Assembly: GCA_002077065.1 (NCBI GenBank)
Contig: NAJO01000136.1
Coordinates: 1-14,557, forward strand
Reading direction: 5' to 3'
DNA: 14,557 nucleotides
DNA from: Cryoendolithus antarcticus
Lineage: Eukaryota; Ascomycota; Dothideomycetes; Cladosporiales; Cladosporiaceae
Positions 1 through 14,340 of this stretch are shown one piece after another. Made by a program: the position numbers and the translations under genes. The notes below the pieces were generated by a model. The model saw nothing but the letters and a program-made list of their open reading frames with translations, had not been told where the DNA came from and did not search any database. How positions within the stretch are numbered: the first letter of the stretch is position 1; every line of letters begins with the position of its first letter.

Positions 1-352
1 GCGTAACACTATTACATCAGCATTACATTCCACGGCGTAGTGGGGCGCAACGCCTTCGACATGATGGAGCTAATGCTCGCGACTACGATACACCTCCCCG
101 CCATCGGTCATAAAGAACGCCTCTCTTTCGTGTGTCGTTCCGTCGTGCGCCTCAATTTGGTAACGTCCGTCCTCTCGTGCCGAGACGCACCCTGTGGCGA
201 GACAAAGAGGGTTAAATGACTCACTAGCTTCATCACGTGACATCCTGCGCCACATCGGAGATGATTATGCGAGTTGATGTCAGAGCGGTAAGTCACAGTT
301 TTGCCACCAACAACTCACTCAAAACAACTATCTTCAACTATACTGCTACAGT
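1..352. other. No assignable gene
   Basis: No recognisable gene. A 61-codon minus-strand frame ends at 70 but matches nothing I know and has no supporting context. The perfect palindrome TCACGTGA lies at 233-240, about 115 bp upstream of the BTB gene start. It is the core of a bHLH (E-box/CBF1-type) site, but no function can be claimed. Confidence 0.4.
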
Positions 353-2307: not shown

Positions 2308-2339
2308 ACGTCCATCCCTGCGTCGCGAACTACCCTCCG
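2308..2339 (+). repeat. Left terminal inverted repeat of element C
   Basis: Starts ACGTCCATCCCTGCGTCGCG and ends ACCCTCCG. It matches the reverse complement of 12701-12732 at 28 of 32 bases; a further CGAGC match follows three mismatches later (2343-2347). It is immediately preceded by TT. Confidence 0.78.
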
Positions 2340-3060
2340 TTACGAGCCAGATTCACGATTCAAGCCTCTGAATTTCCTAATCAGAGGTTTGTTGAACCGT
2401 TCTTCAGTCACATTGCTCTATAGCTCTACCTCTATGATGAGGCCGAGGTGCAATAAAAGTTACCGTCTAGCGGTCGAGCTATCGATTGTTTCGCTATTAC
2501 CGCGAATCGATGCTTCTTATGTTCACCCTTACTAAATCCTATTCCAAAGGGTCTCTAGGTCCTACAAGTGACAGACTACGAGTGCTGATGGTGAAGAATA
2601 GTGCCCCGGGATTTTAAGGCCACCCGGCAAAAGTGGCATAAACCCGGGAGTTCCGTTTGGCGAGGGACTAGGTGTTTTGATGTAGAGTGTTCTGAACTTG
2701 TCTTAGCGTGTATTTAGCCGGTATGCCAAGCTGTGTAAGTGACCGTATCTTGATCATCGTGATTTACGACATTATTGCTAGCGTTGATGTTGATTGTGGC
2801 GCACGCTCGGGATTCTAGACACATCTGTATATCACGTGACGAGATCTCCATGCTGCTACCTAGCAATGCCACACGCCCAATAGTCTCTGTTAGCGAACTG
2901 AGTCAAGCTACTACTTGACATTTTTGATGTTCAACCTGTGATAGATCTTGCTAGATAGTCTGAGAACATTCCGCCACATGTTTCGCCTTCCTAGTTAAAT
3001 GACGCCTGCTTCGAAGTTGATACAGCATCGCTATCCAGTAGGATTATCGCAACGTACAGG
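2340..3060. other. Gene-free left interior of element C
   Basis: No convincing coding frame. It holds an imperfect inverted repeat at 2605-2648 (CCCGGG...GCCAC / GTGGC...CCCGGG) and a TCACGTGA palindrome at 2832-2839. The rest shows no assignable feature. Confidence 0.4.
2605..2648. repeat. Fold-back sequence
   Basis: Outer arms CCCGGG (2605-2610) and CCCGGG (2643-2648) with inner arms GCCAC and GTGGC can form an imperfect hairpin. The GGCCACCC...AAGTGGC pattern recurs at 7777-7794 in the candidate LTR, so it could be part of a related LTR end. Origin unproven. Confidence 0.4.
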
Positions 3061-3117
3061 ACGTGATGAGCAAGCACTGCTTAGGATCTAAGACTAGTCG
3101 CTGCTTTGCGCAATACC

Positions 3118-3315
3118 AACCTACGAAGCGTAGGTTATGCACACGCAGCCGCCAAGGCTGGAGCCTAAGTGTCACGGGAGAACAACGCATACGCAGGAGT
3201 TCAGTGTGGTACTCAACAAGTTCGATACCGGAGGGAAGGAGGTTCTACTCTGAGTCCGAATCAAAGAGAGCGGAAACCACCGCACGGCCGCAGCTTAGCA
3301 CGGGCGCAGCCCGTG
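3118..3315. repeat. Cluster of short GC hairpins
   Basis: Three compact hairpins occur within 200 bp: 3118-3136 (8-bp perfect stem AACCTACG, loop AAG), 3146-3160 (CAGCC/GGCTG) and 3299-3315 (7-bp stem CACGGGC, loop GCA). A 180-codon plus-strand frame (3063-3605) runs across them but has no recognisable motif. Such hairpin clusters are common in some fungal mitochondrial genomes, but base composition here is not AT-rich, so a mitochondrial origin is only a possibility. Confidence 0.4.
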
Positions 3316-3635
3316 TCTTTGTCCAGGGCTCGCCCCTTACACTAAGGCTCCACATTCTCTCTGCGTCCACACCACGTCGTTTTACAGAAGTGTTAATCCT
3401 CAGTTCTAAGTGTCAGATCTACACAGCCGCACTTGGCCTGAACCAGTGCCTATACCTACCCTCATTGGTGTCACGGCTAAGCAAGATGGTCGATATTCTA
3501 AGGGTAGCCATATCAGGTTGTTCGACTTCTTCGTTATCCAGTATCCGTCTATACTCAACCCTATGCTCTAGGATTGAGGACTGTCCGCCTGCTGGAAATC
3601 GCTAATGTGGCTACACTACTATAGTTCTCGAGCGT

Positions 3636-3900
3636 CTATAGACATGCGCCGCTATAAACGTCCCAGATCTTGACCGTGCGGTCGGCATCACTGGCGGACG
3701 CGAGCAGACCAGAATCATAGGACAAGGCCACCGACAAGACCCTATCGCCATGGCCCCCGAGCGTCCGCAGACGCCGATGCAAGCCAGTTGGATCTAGGAA
3801 ATGCAGCGTCGACAAAAATGGAATGCCCTCTGTACTCGTAGGATCAATTACGCTTCGATTTCTAGGCTGTACTGACCGTAAGGCAAAGGACGTTGACGTG
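3636..3900 (-). pseudogene. WD40-repeat protein fragment
   Basis: The minus-strand frame ending at TAG 3636-3638 encodes a near-canonical WD40 blade: GGHGDRVLSVALSYDSG, then LLASASDADRTVKIWD, then VYSGACL. The GH dipeptide, the structural Asp and the closing WD are all in register. About 50 residues upstream in the same frame contain no second clear repeat. The wording is like the WD40 tails of fungal NACHT-WD40 (HET-E-type) NLR proteins, but no NACHT motif is visible, so this is a single-blade remnant. Known of the family: WD40 propellers bind ligands and partners. Inferred: a broken tail left by TE activity. Confidence 0.65.
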
Positions 3901-3943
3901 TATATTATGGTTCCTAAGCTTAGATATTGCTATGTGCTAATAA

Positions 3944-4161
3944 AGTTACATCGTTTGCGGTACTAAGCGACTGACAAGAGCGCACACCCGTGCCGTACGG
4001 GGCGCAAACTTGATCAAATTATCATACGTAGACTTCGTCGAAGCTGAGAATGCTGACCAGGGGCTAGCTCGCGGAAAAGCTTCCGCTCTACAGGCTTTAA
4101 CCTATTTCATCCAACCACACTTCACGCTCAGCGAGCGCTACCCTCACGTTCCATACCCTTG
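3944..4161 (+). CDS. Unrecognised open frame, possible exon
   Basis: An open frame of 72 codons with no ATG near its start, ending TGA at 4159-4161. It reads smoothly (..YVDFVEAENADQGLARGK.., ..ALTYFIQPHFTLSERYPH..) and has protein-like composition, but I recognise no family. A CTAAC branch-like site (4222-4226) and CAG acceptor (4236-4238) lie downstream, before the next frame, so it might be an upstream exon of the gene at 4239-4715. No convincing donor was found between them. Confidence 0.25.
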
Positions 4162-4238
4162 AGCACGAATTTCCTCAGCGTCACCTGTCGTACAGCGGCG
4201 ATGCGTCAGCAATCACGTATCCTAACGACCTGTCGCAG

Positions 4239-4715
4239 GTGACTTCACTTGAAGTGTACGTGTCGATGCAGGTATGTATGACGAATCAACACTACGTTCT
4301 TCCTCCTCCAGCAGAGCAATCCCGCGGCTCTATCAGTTGTGCCTACGTCCAAGAAGCTAATAAGGAACTTATAAGCATTATCCACCGGTTCCACAAGCTC
4401 AGATTGTCAAGACCAAAATACGCGCAGATACTTCCGAAGTCCTCGAGACAACATATGGCGGCAGCCCATAGATCACATGTCATCAGCGAGACTCCGGTGT
4501 TCTATGAATTTGTGGTGTTGTACATCGAGAAGACGATGGATTTAGTTGTCAAGGCAAAGGATCAAGAAGGACACATTACTCTAATTGAGGACGGGGACAA
4601 AGAAGGAGAGCGGGTCATACACACCATAAGTGCCGGGAGCACGATGCAGCTGACGGTGAAAGGAGGCGTGTCTTGTCGCATTCTTGGGTTATCGATCAGT
4701 AGCAGCTTGAATTAG
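4239..4715 (+). CDS. Hypothetical protein, about 150 aa
   Basis: The open frame runs from 4239 to TAG at 4713-4715. The first in-frame ATG is at 4266, giving 149 aa. The upstream 27 bp follow a CTAAC...CGCAG sequence, so the frame may instead be a terminal exon entered at 4239. Residues include a basic stretch (HRFHKLRLSRPKYAQILPKSSRQ) and an acidic/hydrophobic C-terminal part (VVKAKDQEGHITLIEDGDKEG, then STMQLTVKGGVSCRILGLSI), suggesting a beta-rich small domain. No family recognised, no signal peptide or membrane segment. It is tail-to-tail with the broken gene at 4725-5481. Confidence 0.4.
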   Translation: MTSLEVYVSMQVCMTNQHYVLPPPAEQSRGSISCAYVQEANKELISIIHRFHKLRLSRPKYAQILPKSSRQHMAAAHRSHVISETPVFYEFVVLYIEKTMDLVVKAKDQEGHITLIEDGDKEGERVIHTISAGSTMQLTVKGGVSCRILGLSISSSLN

Positions 4716-4724
4716 AGACAGTGG

Positions 4725-5481
4725 CTATTTGCTTTGATAAAGTCCAAGCTTTGTGATGATGTTCCACCCGGTCTCATGATCGATGAGGCTCATAACGCAG
4801 AAATCACCCGTTTGTGTGCGTGGAACGAACATATGCACAGCTCCTGCGTACTTTTCCCCAACGTGCCCCGCCCCGTTAGCGTTCGACTGTACCCCCTGGA
4901 CGACGGCAGCGAAAAGCTGCTGAACGTCTGCTCGGGGAATCGCGGTCAGGTGAACAAACTGCTTAGAATCCCGCAGTTCTGCCGAAGGATACCAATTGCC
5001 CCAGGCTGGAGCGCTCGTTAGCACGATTCGTGCTCAACCTCCATACGAAGGAAAGTACGACTCACACTGCAGAAATCGGAAAATGATGTCGCATGTCTTC
5101 TGACATTGTTTCTCAGCTTTCAGCTTCTCCAGATCTCCTAGCACAACAGGCTTCCAGTCTCTGGATAAGTCAAGGTTATGTACCAGCCTATCAAAAGTAG
5201 GCTTTGCGAGACGTCCACCACCCCAGGAGACTGGACAATAAGCTGTTGCCCAGCTGACGAGTGCAGTGTGACTGAGAAGCTGTAGCTCTTTACACCTCTG
5301 CTGGGTTTGATCTTCCTTGAAACCCGATCTCTTGGCCTTGCCGTGATCATGATCTCCAAGAATCAAATATGATGTTCCTGTTGAAGTATGCCGGTAAAGA
5401 GTTCTCTCTAATGGCGGTCTCGATGCGAGTGCGGCCTCTCTCAATCATAGACTTCGCATCGGGTCCTTTAGACTGTGCCAT
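4725..5481 (-). pseudogene. Unrecognised gene, broken by one frameshift and one stop
   Basis: The start is ATG 5481 in strong context (CAACCATGGC). The first frame encodes MAQSKGPDAKSMIERGR and runs about 44 codons, to a TGA at 5347-5349. From about 5370 another frame takes over (GDHDHGKAKRSGFKEDQ...) and stays open to 4725 except for one TGA at 5034-5036. Beyond that TGA the same frame continues (LTSAPAWGNWYPSAELRDSK... to LGLYQSK). There is no GT donor in the short zone of the shift, so an intron is unlikely. About 250 codons in all. Features include Trp-rich AYCPVSWGGGRL, an LDLSRDWKP segment and a Lys-rich helix. I recognise no family. Length, good start context and only two lesions suggest a recently inactivated gene. 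The 17-bp minisatellite lies about 105 bp upstream of the ATG. Confidence 0.5.
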
Positions 5482-5586
5482 GGTTGATGGACAGCGTCCC
5501 TTGACAGGCAATTACCCGATGAGCTCGGGTAAAACAGTTGCCAGCGCTTGTGTGTTGCTTGTGAGGATTGAGGACGTGGCAAAGAT

Positions 5587-5701
5587 GCACGGGCGGGCAG
5601 AGTGCACGGGCGGGCAGAGTGCACGGGCGGGCAGAGTGCACGGGCGGGCAGAGTGCACGGGCGGGCAGAGTGCACGGGCGGGCAGAGTGCACGGGCGGGC
5701 A
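5587..5701 (+). repeat. 17-bp G-rich minisatellite, 6.8 copies
   Basis: Six perfect tandem copies of gcacgggcgggcagagt (5587-5688), then a seventh that matches for 13 bases (5689-5701) before degenerating. The period is not a multiple of three, so open frames through it on both strands are artefacts of absent stops. Every unit has two GGG runs, so neighbouring units could form a G-quadruplex on the plus strand. Perfect identity implies recent expansion. Confidence 0.95.
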
Positions 5702-6069
5702 AAGGGCAGAGTGCGGTAGGGCAGCCGACGAATAGGGAAAGCTGCCGGCTGAATGAGCTTTACTGCGGGCCGCGTGCATTGTGGCGTGGAGATGCTTCAT
5801 GAATGAGATTCTACCTCAACAAATGGTATGCAAGTGAAGGTTGATGGCTCTGCTGGATCACGTGATCTTTGTCGACAGGATATAACACCGAGTGTTCAAC
5901 CGCTTCCTGACCAAGTGTGCAAGTCTATTGAGTACACCACTCTTTGTACAAAAATTCATTCCCCGGAATCTAGTGCCGGCAATCCAACCAAGATCGAGGG
6001 CAACGACCCCATAATTACCATGTAAATTTGATGGGCTCAGAAGTCCTTCGAGGCTAACCTGGATATAGC
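5702..6069. other. Intergenic region upstream of Cys-rich ORF
   Basis: No assignable gene; a 65-codon plus-strand frame (5828-6025) has no recognisable feature. The perfect 12-bp palindrome GATCACGTGATC is at 5856-5867. Just before the Cys-rich ORF, GCTAACC (6052-6058) and TATAG (6064-6068) resemble a branch site and 3' splice acceptor, so a 5' leader intron is possible. Confidence 0.35.
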
Positions 6070-6252
6070 ATGTGTGGTCAAGATGTTTATTTTGACCGAT
6101 GTGGCCACCGCCATAGGAGCAACAGACAGTGTCTCTACTGGGGCACTACGAAATGTCGGGAATGGCCAGACCAACATCTCGATAACAGGTGCGCGGCTTG
6201 CGCAAGGGCGGCGGAAGAGGCGGCGAGGAAGAAAGCACAGGCTGGAAAGTAG
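6070..6252 (+). CDS. Small Cys/His-rich hypothetical protein
   Basis: 60 aa, ATG at 6070. Cysteines at residues 2, 11, 21, 29, 41 and 44 and histidines at 13, 15 and 36 give the pattern C-x8-C-G-H-x-H ... C ... C ... H ... C-x2-C. This suits one or two structural zinc sites. The C-terminus is an Ala/Lys/Glu helix (ACARAAEEAARKKAQAGK). There is no signal peptide, so a secreted disulfide protein is less likely than an intracellular zinc-binding one. Short fungal proteins starting with MC and containing CGH are common, but I cannot name a family. A splice-acceptor-like sequence ends 2 bp before the ATG. Whether it is expressed is unknown. Confidence 0.45.
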   Translation: MCGQDVYFDRCGHRHRSNRQCLYWGTTKCREWPDQHLDNRCAACARAAEEAARKKAQAGK

Positions 6253-6410
6253 TTGAAAAGGAATCCTACATTGCAACAGTATTGAGATGGCCGCAGAACG
6301 AAAGGTCGTACAGTGCGGAAGCGCCTTCAGGGAACCTCACCAACCGAGGAAGTTGGATGCACTAGTTATTTATGCATAGCATTTGGCATTCAAGCTCTTG
6401 TATGCCCAGC

Positions 6411-6843
6411 TCATTTCGTTTGAATTGCCCTGCCGTCCCCGGACTCGACCGGGATTGCACGATTGATCTGTGCTGCAGGTCGGACCGTGGCCTCTGCGAG
6501 CTCGTGGAGCGCGAGGCAGATGTCGCGGGACTCAAGCGTAATCTGCTACCGTTGAGTCGCGTTGTCGCCGGCTGAAGCGAGGGCGTTGTAGAAACCTGCG
6601 GTGAAGTGGTGGGCCATATAGAACAGCTTCACCGAGTCATTGTCGTTCATGAGTCTCGGTGACTGCTACAGCCATCCCCATGGACACGGAAGCGCGTCCG
6701 GCTCTTTCGACGGCATCTCGTAGTTCGAATGCAGCTTTATAATAGTACGCCAGGTTGGCCCGGCGGTGATTCACGAAAATCGTGGGGCGTAAGTGATATG
6801 AATACACCCAGCAGGACGCACTGATCATGCACCGCTGGCGCAT
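6411..6843 (-). pseudogene. Unrecognised coding remnant, frame-shifted
   Basis: Two overlapping minus-strand frames look like one broken coding sequence. The first (from 6843) includes RPTIFVNHRRANLAYYYKAA and FELRDAVERAGRASVSMGMA and stops at 6637. The second starts at ATG 6650 (MNDNDSVKLFYMAHHFTAGF, then YNALASAGDNATQ), meets one TAG, and continues (DICLALHELAEATVRPAAQ) to TGA at 6411-6413. The protein-like, helix-forming composition and the overlap suggest a frameshift near 6650 plus a nonsense change. No family recognised. Confidence 0.3.
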
Positions 6844-7228
6844 GGTCTGTGCGAGATCACGAATGCAACCACAGGACTAAGGCTTGATATTGCCCCGACG
6901 AAGACTCTCGGCATGTCAGCGGGGATTGGCATCCGGAAGCCGCAAATGCTAGACGCAGTTCGCGCGGGTATCTAAACGCAGCGCGAAAGAGCTCTGTCAG
7001 AATATTCGAAGGACATTGCAGCTGGACACTACAGCTGGTCACAGTGGAGCAACCTGTGAACGTACCCATTACAAGGATAGTAGACTGCTCTATGCTGGTG
7101 CTGATCTCAGGGGAGCAACCTTTGGAAGCAGCCACTGCAAGGACTACACTGCTGAGCACTTCGGTGCGCTGATCTTCGACCCACACGAGCCTCGGGTCCT
7201 TCTGCGACTTGGTAACTGGGTCCACTTT
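6844..7228. other. Region 3' of the RPA12-type gene
   Basis: Frames exist on both strands here, but none shows a domain. They partly overlap the RPA12-type gene in other frames and are treated as chance. No terminator signal can be assigned with confidence. Confidence 0.3.
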
Positions 7229-7644
7229 TCAATTGTTGACATTGAATCTGTGGTCACAGCTCTGACAGTGGTAGCGAATCGTCGTGCCTTCGTCTGCGCT
7301 CCGCGTCTGTGCTTCTGTATAGTACAAATTGGGTTTTTGACATCTGGGACAGTCCTCATCGGAAATTTTCCGTGTATTGATCATGCCCTCGGACACCTCT
7401 TGCGTATGGGAGTACTTTTTATCTCTCAATCTCGACGGGAAATTTGTTGAAGAACTCGTAGTGGTCTCCGGCCATAGGTCTGGTACTTGTTAGTGTACAT
7501 CATGTGCTGTAAGTTTGTTGGAACCCCACTTGTGTTGATGGTATTGCATGCGAGACAGGTGATTTCTGTTGTAGTCTTCTTGTTGGCGCGCTCGAGAATA
7601 TTGCCGCAATCCGTACAGAAGACAAGGCTTCCGACGAGCGCCAT
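7229..7644 (-). CDS. RPA12: DNA-directed RNA polymerase I subunit RPA12 (A12.2-like)
   Basis: Two exons, 7644-7530 and 7479-7229, give a 121-aa protein (yeast Rpa12 is about 125). The N-terminus MALVGSLVFCTDCGN with Cys 10/13 and 30/33 forms the first zinc ribbon that docks the subunit on Pol I. A linker (SSSTNFPSRLRDK) leads to a TFIIS-like C-terminal ribbon with Cys 82/85 and 110/113 and the RSADEG hairpin (Asp101, Glu102). In this family that hairpin reaches the active site and stimulates RNA cleavage, as known for Rpa12 and TFIIS. All eight zinc ligands and both acidic residues are present. Splicing of the 50-bp intron keeps the frame perfectly. The ATG has A at -3. Unusually, it lies inside element C, so it is more likely a captured paralogue than the only genomic copy, but this cannot be decided here. 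Confidence 0.9.
7480..7529 (-). other. Intron of the RPA12-type gene
   Basis: 50 bp on the minus strand: donor GTGGGG, branch site ACACTAACA and acceptor CAG 11 bases after it. Removing it joins CNTINT to N and LWPETTTSSS without a stop. Without splicing the first exon runs into a TGA after 72 codons and never reaches the second zinc ribbon. The donor is not the commonest fungal form. Confidence 0.8.
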
Positions 7645-7718
7645 GATCTCGGTGTTTGAGATATGTACAGAAGGAAATGGTCCATGAACATGGGAAACAG
7701 AATGAATCTGCGCAACGG

Positions 7719-7738
7719 TTCGGGTAGATTCGGGTAGA
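7719..7738. repeat. 10-bp direct duplication upstream of the RPA12-type gene
   Basis: Two adjacent copies of ttcgggtaga (7719-7728, 7729-7738), about 75 bp upstream of the minus-strand ATG. They could be a paired regulatory site or simple tandem duplication; no factor can be assigned. Confidence 0.5.
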
Positions 7739-7770
7739 TCCGCCGCGGATTGCAGAGGCTAACATCCCCG

Positions 7771-7970
7771 TGTAACGGGCCACCCTAAGTGGCGGGCCAC
7801 TTTGCGAAACTTAGATCCGCATATCTCTTGCCCCGAGTTTGTACGGACACAAGTAACATCGCCCTGATCTATGCTCGTTCCTCTATCTACAAGCTAAAGC
7901 ATTACAGTAAATATGGGAGATTGGTCGTGTTGTCGATCATTATGCTGATAGAGGTAATCGATCCGTTAGC
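7771..7970 (+). mobile_element. Candidate solo LTR (copia-like)
   Basis: The stretch begins TGTAACGGGCCACCC and, 200 bp on, reaches ATCCGTTAGC. CCGTTA pairs with TAACGG at the start, and a fungal LTR of this type would be expected to close with CCGTTACA. The start shows the fold-back GCCACCCTAAGTGGC seen in some fungal LTR ends. No 5-bp target duplication was identified, and no gag/pol is present in the window, so it would be solo and slightly decayed. A coincidence remains possible. Confidence 0.35.
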
Positions 7971-8173
7971 GATTGACCCCTGCTACCCCATTATCGATGA
8001 GCTGTTTCCCGATCTCGGAGGGCGAATACTGTGGTTAGGTGGTTGAGGAATGCATGCGCTGCTTGAGGTGGAGTCTCAGCTTGTACACATGCATTCCGAG
8101 AGTTTCTCCGTTCGCCAGGAGACATTGCTCGTTCGCGTGAGAAATTATAATGAATAATCGTGCTGACATCATA
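7971..8173. other. Spacer before element B
   Basis: Nothing assignable. The TA at 8172-8173 is the proposed target dinucleotide of element B. Confidence 0.4.
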
Positions 8174-10300
8174 CTGTAACGCACCGCAATTGTGCTCAGC
8201 ACCACGCTCGATTCAGATATGCTGTTGCTGTGAGCTGTGGCGCATGTGGCGCTCACTTCTAGATGCTTCTTTAAGCCACGTGGCCGGTGTAATTCCATAC
8301 CCAGTCTATTCTTAGACAGATTCTCGGGTACCTGCAGATCCCCCAAACTTTCTTTCCCGCTACTTCCTCCACATCCACCACAGCCCGATGCAACAACGTG
8401 ATATGGACAGGGCCAGCCAGGTGTTGGCCGAAGACGTGTGCACTGGTGCCATCAGATTTTACCGTGCTCGATCTAGTCGTAATGACGTACCTCGCACCAC
8501 GCTTCAGCATCGCGCGCGCGCGGATGGCGGTCGCTTAGAGAGAAGTCCCAAAGCCAACAGTACCTCGACCCGTGGGAAGAAAAAGCCCTTGTCAAGTTGC
8601 TCGTGCATCAAGACGCTCTTGGTCGCCCTGTTCGGATAAAGTATGTAAGCTCGATAGCCTTTGGCCTCGCTCGTCAGCGGAGCCCTTCGAGAAGACCTAA
8701 CAAGCCACCGGGCAAAAATTGGCCGCAATCCTTCCATAAGCGCCACCTAGAGCTTAAAGCCAGTACAGCCAAGGCGCTGGACTGGAATTGGTACGACATC
8801 CATGATAAGGTAATGCACCGGTTCGACGTGATCGGACAAGTCTTACTGGAGCCGAATGTCTTACAAGAGAATGTCTACAATATGGATGAGACGGGCATCA
8901 TGCTTTCACAGCTCGGCTCCGTCAAGGTTCTCGTAGGTAGGGACAACCAGCAAGGCTGCAGAGGCGCGCGTGTCAAGCGGACGACGATAACGGCGATCGA
9001 ATGCGTGAGTGCCGATGGTAGGTGTCTCGACCCCATGATAATCTGGCCCGCTTCAACTCATAGATATAATTGGAGCATGCATCCCACCCCGGGATGGCAT
9101 TACGCATTCTCCGACAGCGGATACACCAACTCATACCTTAGCTTACAGTGGCTCAAGCTTCTATTTGACCCTCAAACTAAAGAACGCGCAGGATGGAAGC
9201 CACGGATTCTGATCTGCGATGGTTTCGGGACGCATGAAACCCTCGAAGTCTTGGAGTTCTGTTTCGAAAACAATATCACACTCTGCCGTCTCCCGTCCCC
9301 CACATCCCACAAGCTTCAGCCTTGTGACATCTCGGTGTTCGGCCCGCTTAAAGCAGCCTATCGCGATCAAGTGGAAAGATTAGAACGTGGTGGCGTAGGG
9401 ACGATCGGGAAAGAGCATTTCACTTCCTTGTATAGCCCCGCGCGGGATCGTGCGCTTACGTCGAGGAATATTCGTGCTGGATGGGCCAAGGCGGGACTCT
9501 TTCCATTCAATCCGACCAGGGTTATCGTAGATATTCCTAAGCCCCTCGCAGAAGTCGCAGTTCAGGAAACGATAGGGGCACAAGTGGATAATGTCGATCG
9601 AAGTGACATACCGCAGACCCCCGTCACTCTAGTGTCTACAGAAGCTGCCACCTCGCTGCGTCACCTAATCGAGCAGGATGCCCACCTGTTGGACGAGATG
9701 AAAAGGCAGCGCCTACAGAGGCGCCTACAAAAGCTCATCAATGCCACCCAATTATCCTTTGCCGAGCGTGCCCTCCTTCGTGGGCAAAACCAGTTCCTGA
9801 TGGGAGTCAACAACGAAGCCAAGGTCCGCCGCTCGACCAGGTCAACGGTGGTAGGAACGGCGAGAGTGATGAGCTACGAAGACCTCGACAAAGCAAGAGC
9901 AGAGCGTGCTAGGAAAGAGGCTGGGAAAGAGGCCAAGAAAGGTGAGAAAGAAGCCCGGAAAATCGCAAACATTACGGCAGAGGCCGAGGAATCCACTTCG
10001 GTCACGAAAGGACGTGGTCGTAAAGAGAAGCCTGCCACATCCACTTCTTATACTCTCGAGACAAGGGCTGCGGTGGCGGAAAGCAGCGACAGACAGCTTG
10101 CGAGCTATGAGCGAGAAGTAGAAGTGGTAGAGTTAGAGGCTCCAGCAGCGTCGCTGTGCGAAAGACAAACTAAGGGGTATGCGACAGCACCGACACTGTG
10201 GAGAGCTCCAGCAGCGCGCATGTGGTAGCAGAGGGCGTTTGGAAGATATTCAGGACCATGAATGCGGCCTGAATTAGTTTGAATCTCCGCCACGTTACTG
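8174..10300 (+). mobile_element. Element B: pogo/Fot1-like transposon, nearly complete
   Basis: 2.1 kb around the transposase gene. The left end reads CTGTAACGCACCG after TA (8172-8173). The right end read inward is CAGTAACGTGGCGG, followed outward by TA (10301-10302). The ends match at 8 of the first 9 positions except one substitution (CxGTAACG), and the right end resembles that of element A (CAGTAxCGT). Size, TA flanks and the distance from left end to the HTH (about 215 bp) fit a Tc1/mariner-pogo element. The inverted repeats are short and imperfect, so the boundaries are tentative. Confidence 0.5.
8388..10228 (+). pseudogene. Element B transposase (DDE_1, pogo/Fot1-like), frameshifted
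   Basis: Almost full-length transposase. The N-terminal psq-type helix-turn-helix (YRARSSRNDVPRTTLQHRAR) is read from ATG 8388. Just after it the frame must change at a run of six CG dinucleotides (8511-8522). One CG fewer would join smoothly into the frame that runs from GWRSLREKSQSQQYL to 10228. That frame holds the second DNA-binding segment (LGRPVRIKY, PPGKNWPQSFHKRH) and the catalytic triad: Asp97 in YNMDETG, Asp208 in ILICDGFGTH, Asp244 in LQPCDISVF, counted from the Met at 8597. With 35 residues between the last two, this is DD35D. A Lys/Glu/Ala-rich basic region follows, then the family end WRAPAARMW. Translation from 8597 would lack the first DNA-binding domain. All catalytic residues are intact, suggesting recent inactivation. 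Confidence 0.9.
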
Positions 10301-10658
10301 TATACATGAAGAACCTGGGCACTTGTTGCTCACTCTCGGCGCAAGAGGTGCAATCGGTAGACATTTGAGGCAGATAGGCCTTAACATTGTCTATCCGTTT
10401 CGCTGCGATCATCTCATCCTTCTCAGTTCCATTCAATGCACACGATCCCATTCAACTCCCTCCCAAATGATGTGGCTCGCAAAATGGGCATGCGTCTCTT
10501 TATCAGGTTTAGCCTCGGCCCGTTTCGGTCGAAACGAGATTGTATACGTAGCTTCGATCACATGACATCAGCTCCACATTGCCCCCTAGACCCATGACAA
10601 CATCCGCAGTGAGGCAAAAACATTACATCGGATGGCAACACAGGCCTAGCCTGCAAAT
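10301..10658. other. Upstream region of coiled-coil gene
   Basis: No gene seen; the open frames in this stretch lack recognisable features. ATCACATGACATC near 10558 is similar to ATCACGTGACATC at 232-244. It may be promoter sequence for the downstream ORF, but no core element can be assigned. Confidence 0.35.
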
Positions 10659-11789
10659 ATGCCGGTCGCTGGCAATCAATCTGTGCAGCGCAGCTCGTCT
10701 GGAGGCTCAGACGCCTCCAGCACCGGAGTCGTTCACAGCGTACTACTCGAAGATGGCCCCAATTCATCCAGCAGCGGCAGTGATGGCGAATGGCTGGCGT
10801 CCATCAACCCAACCGTACAAGACATTCTCCGCGAGTTGCAAGTGCTGCGCAGGGCTAGGCAAATCGACTTTCGAAGTCTGCATGGGGAGTTGCAGGAACA
10901 GCGCACACAGACAAACGAACGCTTCGACAAAGTGTTGCAAGAGTTGCAGGAACAGCGCACACAGACAAATCAACGCTTCGAACAGACAAACGAACGCTTC
11001 GACAAAGTGTTGCAAGAGTTGAAAGAACAGCGTACACAGACAAAACACATCCGTTCGGAATTACAGTCACTGAAGGAAGACACGAAGGCACAGCAGGCTA
11101 ATCGAGGAGCAACGCGTATCCACAATAGCATTCAGCCAGTCGGGCGCTATGATGCTACGAAAGACCTGATATCGATGCCCGACCAGTTCCCTGTTCGTGT
11201 GCATGAGTTTCTGCGACTCAAACTCCGCATGAACTGGAAAGTCTTAGCCAGCCTTCTCCGCTTTTACGATGCAAAGTCATGGTTTGATTGGGGCCTGATC
11301 TCATATGATGAGAGTTCTGAAGAGATACTCGCACCGAGACACCGCACCTTGGACGAAGCCGTCGAGTTTGCGCCAGGACACGCTTTGCAAGAACTTGCCA
11401 TACACATTGGGCTAGACTACGACAAAATCATGACAAACCATGCAGAAGACGAAAAGGTGCAGCAGCATCGCGCGACTTATGCAAAGCGATTGCTGCCGGA
11501 GGGCTCAAGGCCCGCAAAGCGAGAGAAGCAGACTGAGGCTGCGGTGCAAGAGCGGCAACAAATTGCGAGGGTAGAGACTCCACAACCAAAGGACACATCT
11601 CCCGCGCCTTCGTCGGAGAGAATTGGTTGGGACGGCCGCGACACAGAAGATCGCACCCCATCGTCGGGCAACTTCCGGGCTCGGGACGCCGCTGGCAAAC
11701 GGCGGACTCTCTCCCCAACTTCGGTGGCGACTTCTCCGAATGCTCAGCTTCCTATAAGGAAGAATCTACGTACGAAGGAAAGTAGTTGA
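10659..11789 (+). CDS. Hypothetical coiled-coil protein, 376 aa
   Basis: A single intact exon with ATG in good context (A at -3). Residues 1-45 are Ser/Gly-rich and disordered. About residues 50-150 form a long coiled coil. Within it an 18-residue unit, ELQEQRTQTNERFDKVLQ, is repeated: a full copy, a 14-residue copy, an 11-residue partial copy and a start of a further copy. About residues 155-260 look globular (SMPDQFPVRVHEFLRLKLRM, SLLRFYDAKSWFDWGLISYD, ALQELAIHIGLDYDKI). The remainder is charged and low complexity, with a basic KRxxxEGSRPAKREK segment that could be nuclear localising. No family or enzyme motif recognised. It is the longest undamaged frame inside element C; in contrast to most neighbours it has no lesions, which hints at a young or maintained gene. 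It could also be a TE-linked accessory ORF. Confidence 0.7.
   Translation: MPVAGNQSVQRSSSGGSDASSTGVVHSVLLEDGPNSSSSGSDGEWLASINPTVQDILRELQVLRRARQIDFRSLHGELQEQRTQTNERFDKVLQELQEQRTQTNQRFEQTNERFDKVLQELKEQRTQTKHIRSELQSLKEDTKAQQANRGATRIHNSIQPVGRYDATKDLISMPDQFPVRVHEFLRLKLRMNWKVLASLLRFYDAKSWFDWGLISYDESSEEILAPRHRTLDEAVEFAPGHALQELAIHIGLDYDKIMTNHAEDEKVQQHRATYAKRLLPEGSRPAKREKQTEAAVQERQQIARVETPQPKDTSPAPSSERIGWDGRDTEDRTPSSGNFRARDAAGKRRTLSPTSVATSPNAQLPIRKNLRTKESS
10887..11045 (+). repeat. In-frame tandem repeats within coiled-coil gene
   Basis: 54-bp unit (10887-10940), a 42-bp 3'-truncated copy (10941-10982), a 33-bp 5'-truncated copy (10983-11015) and a 30-bp start of a further copy (11016-11045). The units are nearly identical at the DNA level and all junctions keep the frame. 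Confidence 0.9.
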
Positions 11790-11965
11790 TACTGACTGCA
11801 AGTGTCGAGCCTGAGCCTGAGCCCGAGCCTCCCTCTTAGCGAGCTCGCTCAAAGTCAGTGTATCACGTAGCTGGTCAAGTGGTATGAACTTCGACGCCTG
11901 GGCAGACGTCTCTGCCGTGTAAGCCATCTAGACTTGTCGGAGTAGCTTAGATTAGCAAGTTAGCA
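11790..11965. other. 3' region with simple repeat and palindrome
   Basis: Four tandem GAGCCY hexanucleotides (11807-11830) and the 12-bp palindrome AGCGAGCTCGCT (11838-11849) follow the coiled-coil gene closely. No gene seen. Confidence 0.6.
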
Positions 11966-12097
11966 GTACTGCTCAAGGAGGGCGCAGGTGTGGATGCGGC
12001 GAGAGGAGAGTATCGCAACGTGCTTCAGGCTGTATTGGATGAAGGTCACGATGAGGTAGTCCCGTTGCTGTTTGCGAAAAGCACTCTATATTTATGA
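11966..12097 (+). pseudogene. Ankyrin-repeat fragment
   Basis: The open frame encodes VLLKEGAGVDAARGEYRNVL, then QAVLDEGHDEVVPLLFAKS, and ends in TGA at 12095-12097. This is the familiar fungal ankyrin pattern LLLxKGAxVxAxxGxYxNxLQAxxxxGHxxVVxLL. About one repeat remains. A TAG lies 15 bp upstream of it in frame, so it is a fragment. Such repeats occur in the tails of fungal NLR-type proteins, as do WD40 blades like the one at 3636. No link between the two fragments can be shown. Confidence 0.65.
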
Positions 12098-12700
12098 AAC
12101 AGTCCTTCGTTCCACCGCCATACTCAAGTGTTCAATGCAAAATAGCTTGTTTCTTTATAGAAAATGTCAAGATGTTGTCGATCGAAGCCGTGCCCTACGC
12201 GTTGACAACACTCGCTAATTTCACAGCCACAAGTTGATCAGCCACGGGTTATGCACTACTTGCTTACTCATATTCGACTTCACGGTAATTATGGTGTCTC
12301 GCGTTGGCGCTAGCCGCATTAGTTATCGTACTGATTCGTCAGTACTGATCGGCGTTAGCAATCCGCAAGAATCTTTGCAGATTGGCAGCTACAGAGCTCA
12401 CAATGACTCGCTGTATTAGTGTCGAGGCTCAGAGGCGTGAATGCTACTAGATCATGACTATCAAGACTGATAAGCACTCGATGGGGAAGCAATAATGGAG
12501 GTGTTTGTAATATCACCAAAAGAGAGGTCTCTACTTATCACGCGACGAGGGGACAACAGAACCACAAATTGTGTCTGGGACAAGCCGTTAGAGTCAAGGG
12601 GTGACTTGGGAAGAGGGCTGGCGCGGAATGAGAAGAATGCGGAAGGTTATAAGATGTCGAGATGGCTATCAAGAGAAAGTATCTCCAAAATTGCTCGCCT
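12098..12700. other. Gene-free right interior of element C
   Basis: Short frames here carry no recognisable motif. A TTCG-capped hairpin is at 12328-12345. Read on the minus strand, the last 100 bp inside the right TIR are pyrimidine-rich (CTTTCTCTTGATAGCC...), as is common just inside fungal transposon ends. Confidence 0.4.
12328..12345. repeat. TTCG-loop hairpin
   Basis: GTACTGA-TTCG-TCAGTAC: a 7-bp perfect stem closed by a TTCG loop, a very stable tetraloop class in RNA when closed by C-G (here closed by A-T). Outer segments GCTAGCCG (12310-12317) and CGGCGTTAGC (12350-12359) can pair partly and extend the structure. Confidence 0.5.
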
Positions 12701-12732
12701 CGGAGGGTGGCTCGCGACATAGGGATGGACGT
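12701..12732 (-). repeat. Right terminal inverted repeat of element C
   Basis: Read on the minus strand it starts ACGTCCATCCCTATGTCGCG and ends ACCCTCCG; it pairs with 2308-2339 at 28 of 32 bases. It is followed on the plus strand by TA (12733-12734) and then element A coding sequence. Confidence 0.78.
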
Positions 12733-13545
12733 TAGTAGCTGGCCATATGATCATCGGATGCAGGTACCGTCCTGCGGCGCTAATGCATTCGATGGCCGTA
12801 ACAGTACTGCGCTTGACGTGAGCACCTCTATACTTACGTGTGTCGGCTTTACCTACGAGGACCTTTATAGAGCCAAGCATGGAAAGCATTACACCAGTCT
12901 CGTCCATGTTGTAGACATTTTCCGACATGACGTCTGGTCTGTGCAAAATATCTGTGATAACTCCGAACCACTTATGTATCTTCTCATATGTATTCTTCTC
13001 GTGACGATTCCAATCAAGTGCGCGGACTCTTCTCGCGTGAAGCTCTGGGTGTCTCTTCTCGAGCGCCCGAGCCCAATTCTTGCCTGAAGGCTTCGCTGGT
13101 CTCTTCGAGACAGGCCTAATGCGGGTAGCGCTAAATGCTATAAGTTATACGGAATGTATTTGATGCGGACAGGGTGACCTAATGCGGATATCTGCAGGAT
13201 GAAGTTGACTGTAGCCTTCTCTTCCGCAGGTGTCAAATATTGCTGTCGTTCGGCCTTTGACTGGATCGAGGGCCTCCTACGTGCGCGATGATGCAGGGTC
13301 GTGTACGGCACGCCATAATGATCTGCGCGGGCGCGATACGAATTGGGCACGCCGTCAGGCACAGGCTCTGAGAGGATGCGACTTTCCTTGTCCACCCTCT
13401 GCTTCGTATAGCATTGTCTACGACACCTAGGACAAAGAAGTGCCTGCCTCTCTGCAGTAGCTACCACGTGAGTCATCGAAGCTTCTGGAAAGTGTGGGCC
13501 GGAGCTGCGCCTCATCTCGTCAAAATAGGAACCCACCTGCGCCAC
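12733..13545 (-). pseudogene. Element A transposase, 5' half (pogo/Fot1-like)
   Basis: N-terminal part of the transposase whose 3' half is at 1245-2307. The frame from 13545 includes YTKQRVDKESR, the helix-turn-helix YRARADHYGVPYTTLHHRAR, the linker QQYLTPAEEKA and LGHPVRIKYIPY, then meets a TAG near 13138. A different frame continues at once (IAFSATRIRP, PSGKNWARALEKRHPELHAR, RALDWNRHEKNTYEKIHKWF). It carries the first catalytic Asp in YNMDETGVML and ends at MIIWPAT, where element C begins. So besides the insertion there is a small indel near 13138. The true start is uncertain: 13545 is the first Met, but the conserved part begins near 13411. Confidence 0.88.
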
Positions 13546-13580
13546 ATCAACAAGTCCTCAACTTGTAATGATCTGCGACA

Positions 13581-13599
13581 GTACAGTACGGTACTGTAC
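13581..13599. repeat. GTAC-rich palindrome at the right end of element A
   Basis: GTACAGTAC-G-GTACTGTAC, a 19-bp palindrome with 9-bp arms, overlapping the proposed A end (13596) and its TA (13597-13598). A second palindrome, TACTGTACAGTA, overlaps it at 13592-13603. Confidence 0.7.
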
Positions 13600-13928
13600 A
13601 GTACATAGCTTACAGTGTTCATCTCTGGGAAGCTAAGGTTCGGCCGAACATTCCAATGCGACGTACCCGCTGATGAATACACCATCCGTGGATCTGCGAA
13701 TACAACTTCTCCGAGTTGCGCTCCGAAGTCGTGTGGCGATGATGACGTATAGGAACTACGATATCAATCGCAGTCGGAACATTGACGCGGGCAGCCCATT
13801 TAGAGCAAGCACAGTTCGATGTATGAAACATGGCGACTACCTCTGATCATGGTATGCATCTTTACACTAGGTCTGGCATCATTGACGTAGATCGGCGGTC
13901 GCAATTTCTCGAGCGCTTTACTGCTGTC
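13600..13928. other. Right flank of element A, no gene assigned
   Basis: A 70-codon minus-strand frame (13619-13831) and a plus-strand frame from 13830 show no recognisable motif. Nothing else can be assigned. Confidence 0.35.
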
Positions 13929-14114
13929 CTACGCACAGAAGTTGAGCAATTCCGCTGCCATATTTGGAGGCACCTGATTTGGAGCAAAGTATGTCCTTCC
14001 TGCCACGCGGAACCGCCAAGTGTACATCACGTGCTCCAGATCAGGAGGGTTCGGGCATGCCGCAATATCCGAGCGGCGTTCGATCGAGGTAGTCCCAGCC
14101 CTCAGTCTACTGCG
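13929..14114 (-). pseudogene. Unrecognised coding fragment, C-terminal exon or remnant
   Basis: The minus frame is open from 14114 to TAG at 13929-13931. It encodes protein-like sequence (ERRSDIAACPNPPDLEHVMY, then TWRFRVAGRTYFAPNQVPPN, MAAELLNFCA). It is blocked upstream by TAA at 14115-14117, so it is a terminal exon or a fragment. No family recognised. Confidence 0.35.
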
Positions 14115-14179
14115 TTAGCGATGTGTGCCTCTCCATAAGCTCTCTCTGCAGTCTGACCTCGGGAGGATCATGGACCCTT

Positions 14180-14340
14180 CACAAGCCGGAGTGACAGACC
14201 AGTGATCTGACACCTGAAGCTCCGAGTCGTAGGCAGACGCTGATGGTGCGCTTGCCAGGAATGTCGTAGACATAATAGCCGTCGAGTAGGCGCGCGTCTA
14301 TTACGCAAGAAACCCTCACACAAATCCGTAATTAGAGGAC
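14180..14340 (-). other. Possible coding fragment, unrecognised
   Basis: The minus strand here reads VSCVIDARLLDGYYVYDIPG followed by KRTISVCLRLGASG, a smooth protein-like stretch without start or clear end. It may belong to the same dead gene as 13929-14114. The remaining bases to 14557 show nothing assignable. Confidence 0.25.

Follow-up and report, generated by a model that had tools for sequence, protein, structure and literature searches.

Introduction

Described pogo elements measure 1.20–5.20 kb, encode one or two open reading frames (ORFs), and insert at TA (FotC and FotD clades) or TAA, according to the accessible portion of a published survey (PMC7386202). In maize, the ends of two neighboring Ac/Ds copies can mobilize all the DNA between them as a macrotransposon, as summarized in excerpts of three papers (PMC9910405, PMC3260210, PMC4270019). 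In fungi, Starships move cargo genes (PMC9594970, PMC12289983, and PMC11623301, in part), and ToxhAT is a 14-kb element with terminal inverted repeats (TIRs) that carries a gene in a Dothideomycetes fungus (PMC12506042, available text). Here, we describe a 10.4-kb interval of Cryoendolithus antarcticus, contained in a stretch of 14,557 bp (hereafter, the window). Sequence comparisons suggest that the interval is probably a Fot-like macrotransposon of the pogo superfamily: a composite with the left end of one family copy (copy A), the right end of another (element B), and an RPA12-like gene as cargo.

The locus shares with Fot and Fot-like elements a DDE_1 transposase with a DD35D signature, TIRs, and a TA target, the last as given for the FotC and FotD clades in the survey pages at hand (PMC7386202). 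Element B, with 4,975 bp and two ORFs, lies within the size range of that source, whereas the interval as a whole (10,425 bp) lies outside it. The locus also departs from the pogo elements described there in that the unit moved would be 10.4 kb, would bear the ends of two copies, and would have foreign DNA aboard. Furthermore, in several relatives the ends show similarity over ~300 bp, compared with the ~100 bp stated for FotC in the same text (PMC7386202). The resemblance to maize lies in the pairing of ends from two neighboring copies; however, Ac/Ds is a plant hAT system demonstrated by genetics in the excerpts cited, whereas the present case concerns a pogo family in a fungus and rests on sequence alone (PMC9910405, PMC3260210, PMC4270019). 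Cargo transport is the feature in common with Starships, which employ a tyrosine recombinase according to the sections consulted (PMC9594970, PMC12289983, PMC11623301) rather than the DDE transposase, TIRs, and TA target seen here. A Pfam scan of a subset of the window frames, comprising nine frames, two further ones including one repeat, and one more, found no tyrosine recombinase captain. The target of hAT elements is 8 bp. ToxhAT is similar in size and in carrying a gene but is a hAT element by name in the available text (PMC12506042), whereas the interval is of pogo type with a 2-bp target. An initial annotation of the locus had drawn its comparison from Pleosporales; the organism belongs to Cladosporiales.

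Results and Discussion

A precise insertion at TA within a pogo transposase gene

Inverted ends bound the interval at positions 2308–12732. The left TIR (2308–2339, plus strand) and the right TIR (12701–12732, minus strand) agree at 28 of 32 positions, and at 33 of 40 when the comparison is extended to 40 nt; the 32-bp ends and both outer coordinates match exactly those of the initial annotation. The window is one entire contig (C42), and the genome searched comprises 46.97 Mb in 149 contigs, designated here by C numbers, of C. antarcticus, which we take to be the fungus formerly known as Rachicladosporium antarcticum.

The interrupted gene, on the minus strand, encodes the transposase of a third pogo copy. 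Its C-terminal part, with the second and third catalytic Asp, occupies 1320–2307 (DDE_1, E 3.8e-21; paralogs on C8 and C32), and its N-terminal part, with the first catalytic Asp, occupies 12733–13557, as recognized from reading frames and paralogs, with an extra frame break near 13,140. The translations place the cut between the Asp of MDETG and that of CDGFGTH, in accordance with the earlier claim that the gene is split between its first and second catalytic Asp.

When the window flanks are joined with a single TA, the frame closes and the joined sequence aligns without gaps to the uninterrupted paralogs on C8 and C32, as had been anticipated for removal of the interval together with one target copy. 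The right target copy (12733–12734) is TA; the left (2306–2307) is TT, one substitution away from the TA expected from the paralogous sites. Among the TIR-like sites listed, with the two of the window counted in, TA precedes 20 of 22, the exceptions being the left side of the window and a site on C148. A 3-base target duplication (TTA/TAA) was rejected, since the joined sequence would exceed the paralogs by one base and the flanks elsewhere share only TA. A degenerate 28-base end pattern, with three mismatches allowed, occurs at 59 genome sites on 34 contigs; because the reversed pattern yielded none, the pattern exceeds chance. These comparisons confirm the interval as a true, precise TA insertion inside a pogo-type transposase gene and, at the level of sequence, establish its ends. 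An Rfam scan of the window gave no match, and its repeat-induced point mutation indices are unremarkable.

The outer ends belong to two different copies

An end profile was built without the window, and a second profile of 720 nt was derived from seven other copies having a transposase. The end profile matches the window at 2308–2734 (E 3.8e-89), at 12732–12691, where only the TIR is covered (E 2.5e-9), and at 7763–8021 (E 9e-9), the last match starting at model position 6. On the left, the 720-nt profile extends over 2308–2891 (E 8.9e-99), and blastn detects similarity to other ends; together they delimit copy A (2308–2883, plus strand), a pogo left end without a transposase, whose likeness to other copies ends just short of where the transposase would start.

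The same profile also matches 7763–7989 and 8231–8497, the latter at the start of the inner transposase (best of five shuffles, E 0.36), from which we assign this transposase a left end of its own at ~7758. The distance from 7763 to the transposase is as in other copies. The TIR of this left end (7758–7799, plus strand) is decayed: its TA and first five bases are unrecognizable, and the profile match begins at 7763. With the transposase, a second ORF (ORF2), and a right end, it delimits element B, a two-gene pogo element (7758–12732, plus strand) with the same plan as a relative on C136. The right end of B (12192–12732, plus strand) is also the right end of the whole interval. Window positions 12192–12734 have a sole match of such length in the genome query, C136:53789–54333, at 76% identity. 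Profile searches of both strands between 2900 and 7757 detected nothing resembling a right end of A.

Left-type ends outside the window, examined in fetched loci, run directly into the start of a same-family pogo transposase in 8 of 15 cases, although two of the eight, on C20 and C29, seem to be duplicates of each other. The initial annotation had seen no transposase clearly matching the ends of the interval. That statement does not hold, given these eight ends and the same-family transposase inside B, which owns the right end. The other transposon that had been reported within the interval is indeed present, as the two-gene element B, but it is not separate from the interval, whose right end it supplies.

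The comparisons establish that the outer ends come from two different copies, A on the left and B on the right, and the interval, judged from them, is two copies of one family rather than a single element of unknown type. Two other arrangements were rejected: the inner pogo element as a mere passenger, because its right end is that of the interval, and a single element with a 5.6-kb insert between its left end and transposase, because the inner element owns a left end.

A two-gene relative with a surviving empty site

C136:53789–60177 holds a two-gene pogo element whose empty site survives at C9:5085–5500. The order of left end, transposase, and ORF2 matches that of the window, and similarity persists to window position 12195; the C136 right end, corresponding to the window from 12192 on, lies inverted 1.4 kb further. 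When the C136 flanks are joined after undoing this inversion, C9:5085–5500 matches across the junction for 415 bp at 88% identity without a break. The C136 element thus represents a single insertion of ~4.98 kb, close to the 4,975 bp of B, and one of its ends was inverted later. As read from this empty site, which also supports TA as the target, B-type elements insert as ~5-kb units.

Seven junctions were submitted to the empty-site test in one query, and only that of the two-gene C136 element was matched across. No empty site was obtained for the inverted-end pairs of 15.6 kb on C32, 29.7 kb on C4, 4.8 kb on C136, 5.4 and 4.0 kb on C133, and 5.0 kb on C130, whose junctions returned their own flanks or one-sided matches only.

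The transposase of B (8316–10228, plus strand) matches DDE_1 (PF03184) above the cutoff (E 2.8e-26), with 35 residues separating the second and third Asp of its DD35D motif. Its frame is open over 8486–10228 (580 aa), with the N-terminal portion encoded in a different frame. In the C136 copy, the open frame covers 586 aa. Scores for HTH_Tnp_Tc5 fall below the 22.2-bit cutoff in both B (16.9 bits) and C136 (15.5 bits). ORF2 (10650–11789, plus strand; 379 aa) belongs to an unnamed family and shares 76% amino acid identity with the ORF that follows the C136 transposase. The family numbers 11 database proteins, the named ones being from Cryoendolithus, Oleoguttula, and Baudoinia; searches returned no Pfam family above the cutoff and no convincing PDB relative, with only a weak coiled-coil likeness.

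Across 8490–12734, B is a mosaic relative to C136, in that ORF2 and the right end are far closer to C136 than is the transposase. Synonymous divergence (dS) is 0.27 for ORF2 compared with ~1.9, near saturation, for the transposase, and the two halves of B therefore have different histories. The ratio of nonsynonymous divergence (dN) to dS is 0.48 for ORF2 and 0.13 for the transposase. Recombination between copies near 9,930–10,556 would be a simple explanation for the mosaic.

A probable composite unit and its alternatives

The account that we consider probable is that copy A lay ~5 kb upstream of B in the same orientation. The left end of B would have lost its TA and outermost TIR bases, and B would no longer have been able to leave by that end. 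A transposase of the family would then have paired the left end of A with the right end of B and excised all 10.4 kb, which would have entered the third pogo copy at a TA within its transposase gene; the 4.9 kb between A and B, with the RPA12-like gene, would have traveled as cargo. Joint insertion at one target site agrees with the same TA on both sides and with the uninterrupted paralogs; the joint character of the excision and the sequence of steps are what we infer. Several observations weigh against this account. The most serious is that a full-length query of the genome gave pieces only, with neither a donor site nor another instance of the complete 10.4-kb unit; of the copies and empty sites that had been called for, the uninterrupted paralogous sites on C8 and C32 were found, but a second copy was not. 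In addition, the left target copy reads TT instead of TA, and the transposase frame of B is broken today, so a sibling would have to have moved B, or the break came later. Finally, the literature searched, which mostly excluded subscription papers, yielded no description of two pogo copies moving as one unit, nor of any cargo-bearing or composite pogo element.

A similar picture would result from two separate, adjacent insertions if A or B had entered the host TA, its partner had then used the TA bordering the first insertion, and A had later lost its right end. Every insertion at a TA target creates a new TA, and insertions of this family into its own members are frequent, as in a one-sided case on C4 described below. 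This sequence of events is nevertheless unlikely: the right end of A would be due directly before 7758, where the profile found none on either strand although it detected even the decayed left end of B. Moreover, 114 bp separate the start of the RPA12-like gene from 7758, and similarity to its relative on C6 reaches 7703, leaving little room for such an end. More improbable still is one ancestral large cargo-bearing pogo element with its left end at 2308, the likeness at 7763 being a duplicated inner end. The interval does behave as a single unit, and the 15.6-kb interval on C32 combines matching ends with a transposase and ion-transporter genes; however, the eight copies with a transposase beside the left end have no cargo in between, the C32 cargo sits on the opposite side of the transposase, and the C136 element is complete at ~5 kb.

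We give the least credence, and very little, to an assembly artifact that fused halves of unrelated repeats. The window is the whole of a small contig, and a published genome that is possibly this one was assembled from Illumina 2×300 reads, according to the accessible part of its report (PMC5502844). Yet each junction coincides with a TIR edge, both lie at the same TA of a single gene with continuous paralogs, and a 32-bp TIR is short relative to 300-base reads. The closest copies are only ~70–88% alike, which makes assembly collapse unlikely. The macrotransposon thus remains our favored interpretation, and the initial annotation is, overall, partly supported.

The probable cargo

The 4.9 kb between A and B contains an intact RPA12-like gene of 121 aa (7229–7644, minus strand) with a TFIIS zinc ribbon (E 1.1e-15) and a 50-nt intron at 7480–7529, for which splicing is predicted. 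Both this gene and a minisatellite (5586–5701; 17 bp × 6.8 copies) were noted in the initial annotation and are present. A copy elsewhere in the genome, at C6:2392–2816, has the intron in common; the two copies differ by a dS of 0.36 and a dN of 0.06, and their dN/dS of 0.157 points to purifying selection on the cargo gene. The genome pattern search found no site of the end pattern on C6. Canonical RPA12 genes reside on C80 and C2 (45% identical). A tree of 35 rows, consisting of 31 of 37 database proteins (six longer than 160 aa were left out) and four of this genome, groups the cargo gene and the C6 copy with P0132, P0133, and P0135 and separates them from the canonical genes (99/99), although long branches meet there and the placement is unsure. 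The two copies represent a second, diverged RPA12-like lineage, which groups, on these long branches, with single proteins of Viridothelium and Pyrenophora.

The remaining cargo includes a WD40 gene relic (3418–3770, minus strand; WD40 E 1.7e-9 for 3636–3929, minus strand), whose relative on C133 adjoins a same-family end in the same orientation. A short dispersed repeat of ~125 bp (3217–3349) recurs at 76–79% identity on several contigs, including C35, C58, C60, C64, C87, and C93, and another dispersed repeat (6441–6914) has matches on C29, C130, C133, and C39. Two adjoining minus-strand frames at 4725–5444 have no Pfam match.

Outside the interval, what is probably a relic of the right TIR of the host element lies at 163–202 (plus strand), preceded by TA and scoring 20.2 with a position weight matrix against a shuffled maximum of −12.6. 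The A-type end profile lends it no support (E 1.4), and the relic resembles another subfamily. No left end of the host element was found; its expected place near 13598–14329 is taken by a repeat 90% identical to C133:73776–74519.

Related elements across the genome

The interval at C32:2876–18499 spans 15,624 bp, with TA on both sides and inverted ends alike over 300 bp (76%). Its content, read outside C32:3301–8999 (5.7 kb), includes an open transposase frame of 612 aa, a Na/Ca exchanger frame of 342 aa, an open P1B-type ATPase frame of 1,020 aa, and broken ATPase pieces. The region hints at a cargo-bearing pogo element and a wider cargo habit; given this coverage and because no empty site was found, it is a strong lead and not proof. 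Close by, at C32:18784–18938, lies a 155-bp inverted-end pair flanked by TA, resembling a miniature inverted-repeat transposable element.

Other inverted pairs with long similar ends occur at C136:20763–25585 (84%) and C133:34244–39688 (68%), with further pairs at C133:64609–68611 (65% over 236 bp) and C4:5986–35717 (87%, doubtful). We do not claim a 29.7-kb element for the last, because the match to its left flank (C3:30783–31002) stops at the junction and the matches to its right flank (C8 and C12) begin there. The two ends on C130 share no long stretch, nor do the two on C8.

Elsewhere on C4, a left end at 39350 is followed by a transposase. As far as the TA, the stretch in which they sit shows 99.6% identity to an uninterrupted sister; this indication of what may be fairly recent movement is one-sided. 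The copies on C4, C29, and C61 are ~81–90% alike, and this likeness drops off sharply either at the transposase stop or immediately past it; the sequence downstream yielded no right end in any of the three. Truncation is as likely an explanation as an exchanged downstream part or variable cargo.

Implications

A broader interpretation, which we offer tentatively and hold to be possible but doubtful, is that the fungus harbors a whole class of pogo-driven cargo elements. Reshuffled modules, namely a left end with transposase, ORF2 with a right end, and cargo (RPA12-like gene, P1B ATPase, and Na/Ca exchanger), would be moved as 10–16-kb units; these would work in the manner of Starships while relying on a DDE enzyme, TIRs, and a TA target. 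The published pogo survey used transposase hits plus 2 kb of flank, as stated in its available text, and long units would therefore have been missed (PMC7386202). Starships, along with a small number of large TIR elements, have been regarded as the main agents of gene movement in fungi. The interval described here suggests that small cut-and-paste pogo transposons may also act as gene carriers. If neighboring ends can indeed be paired and intact genes carried between them, this very widespread family would be a source of gene duplication and relocation.

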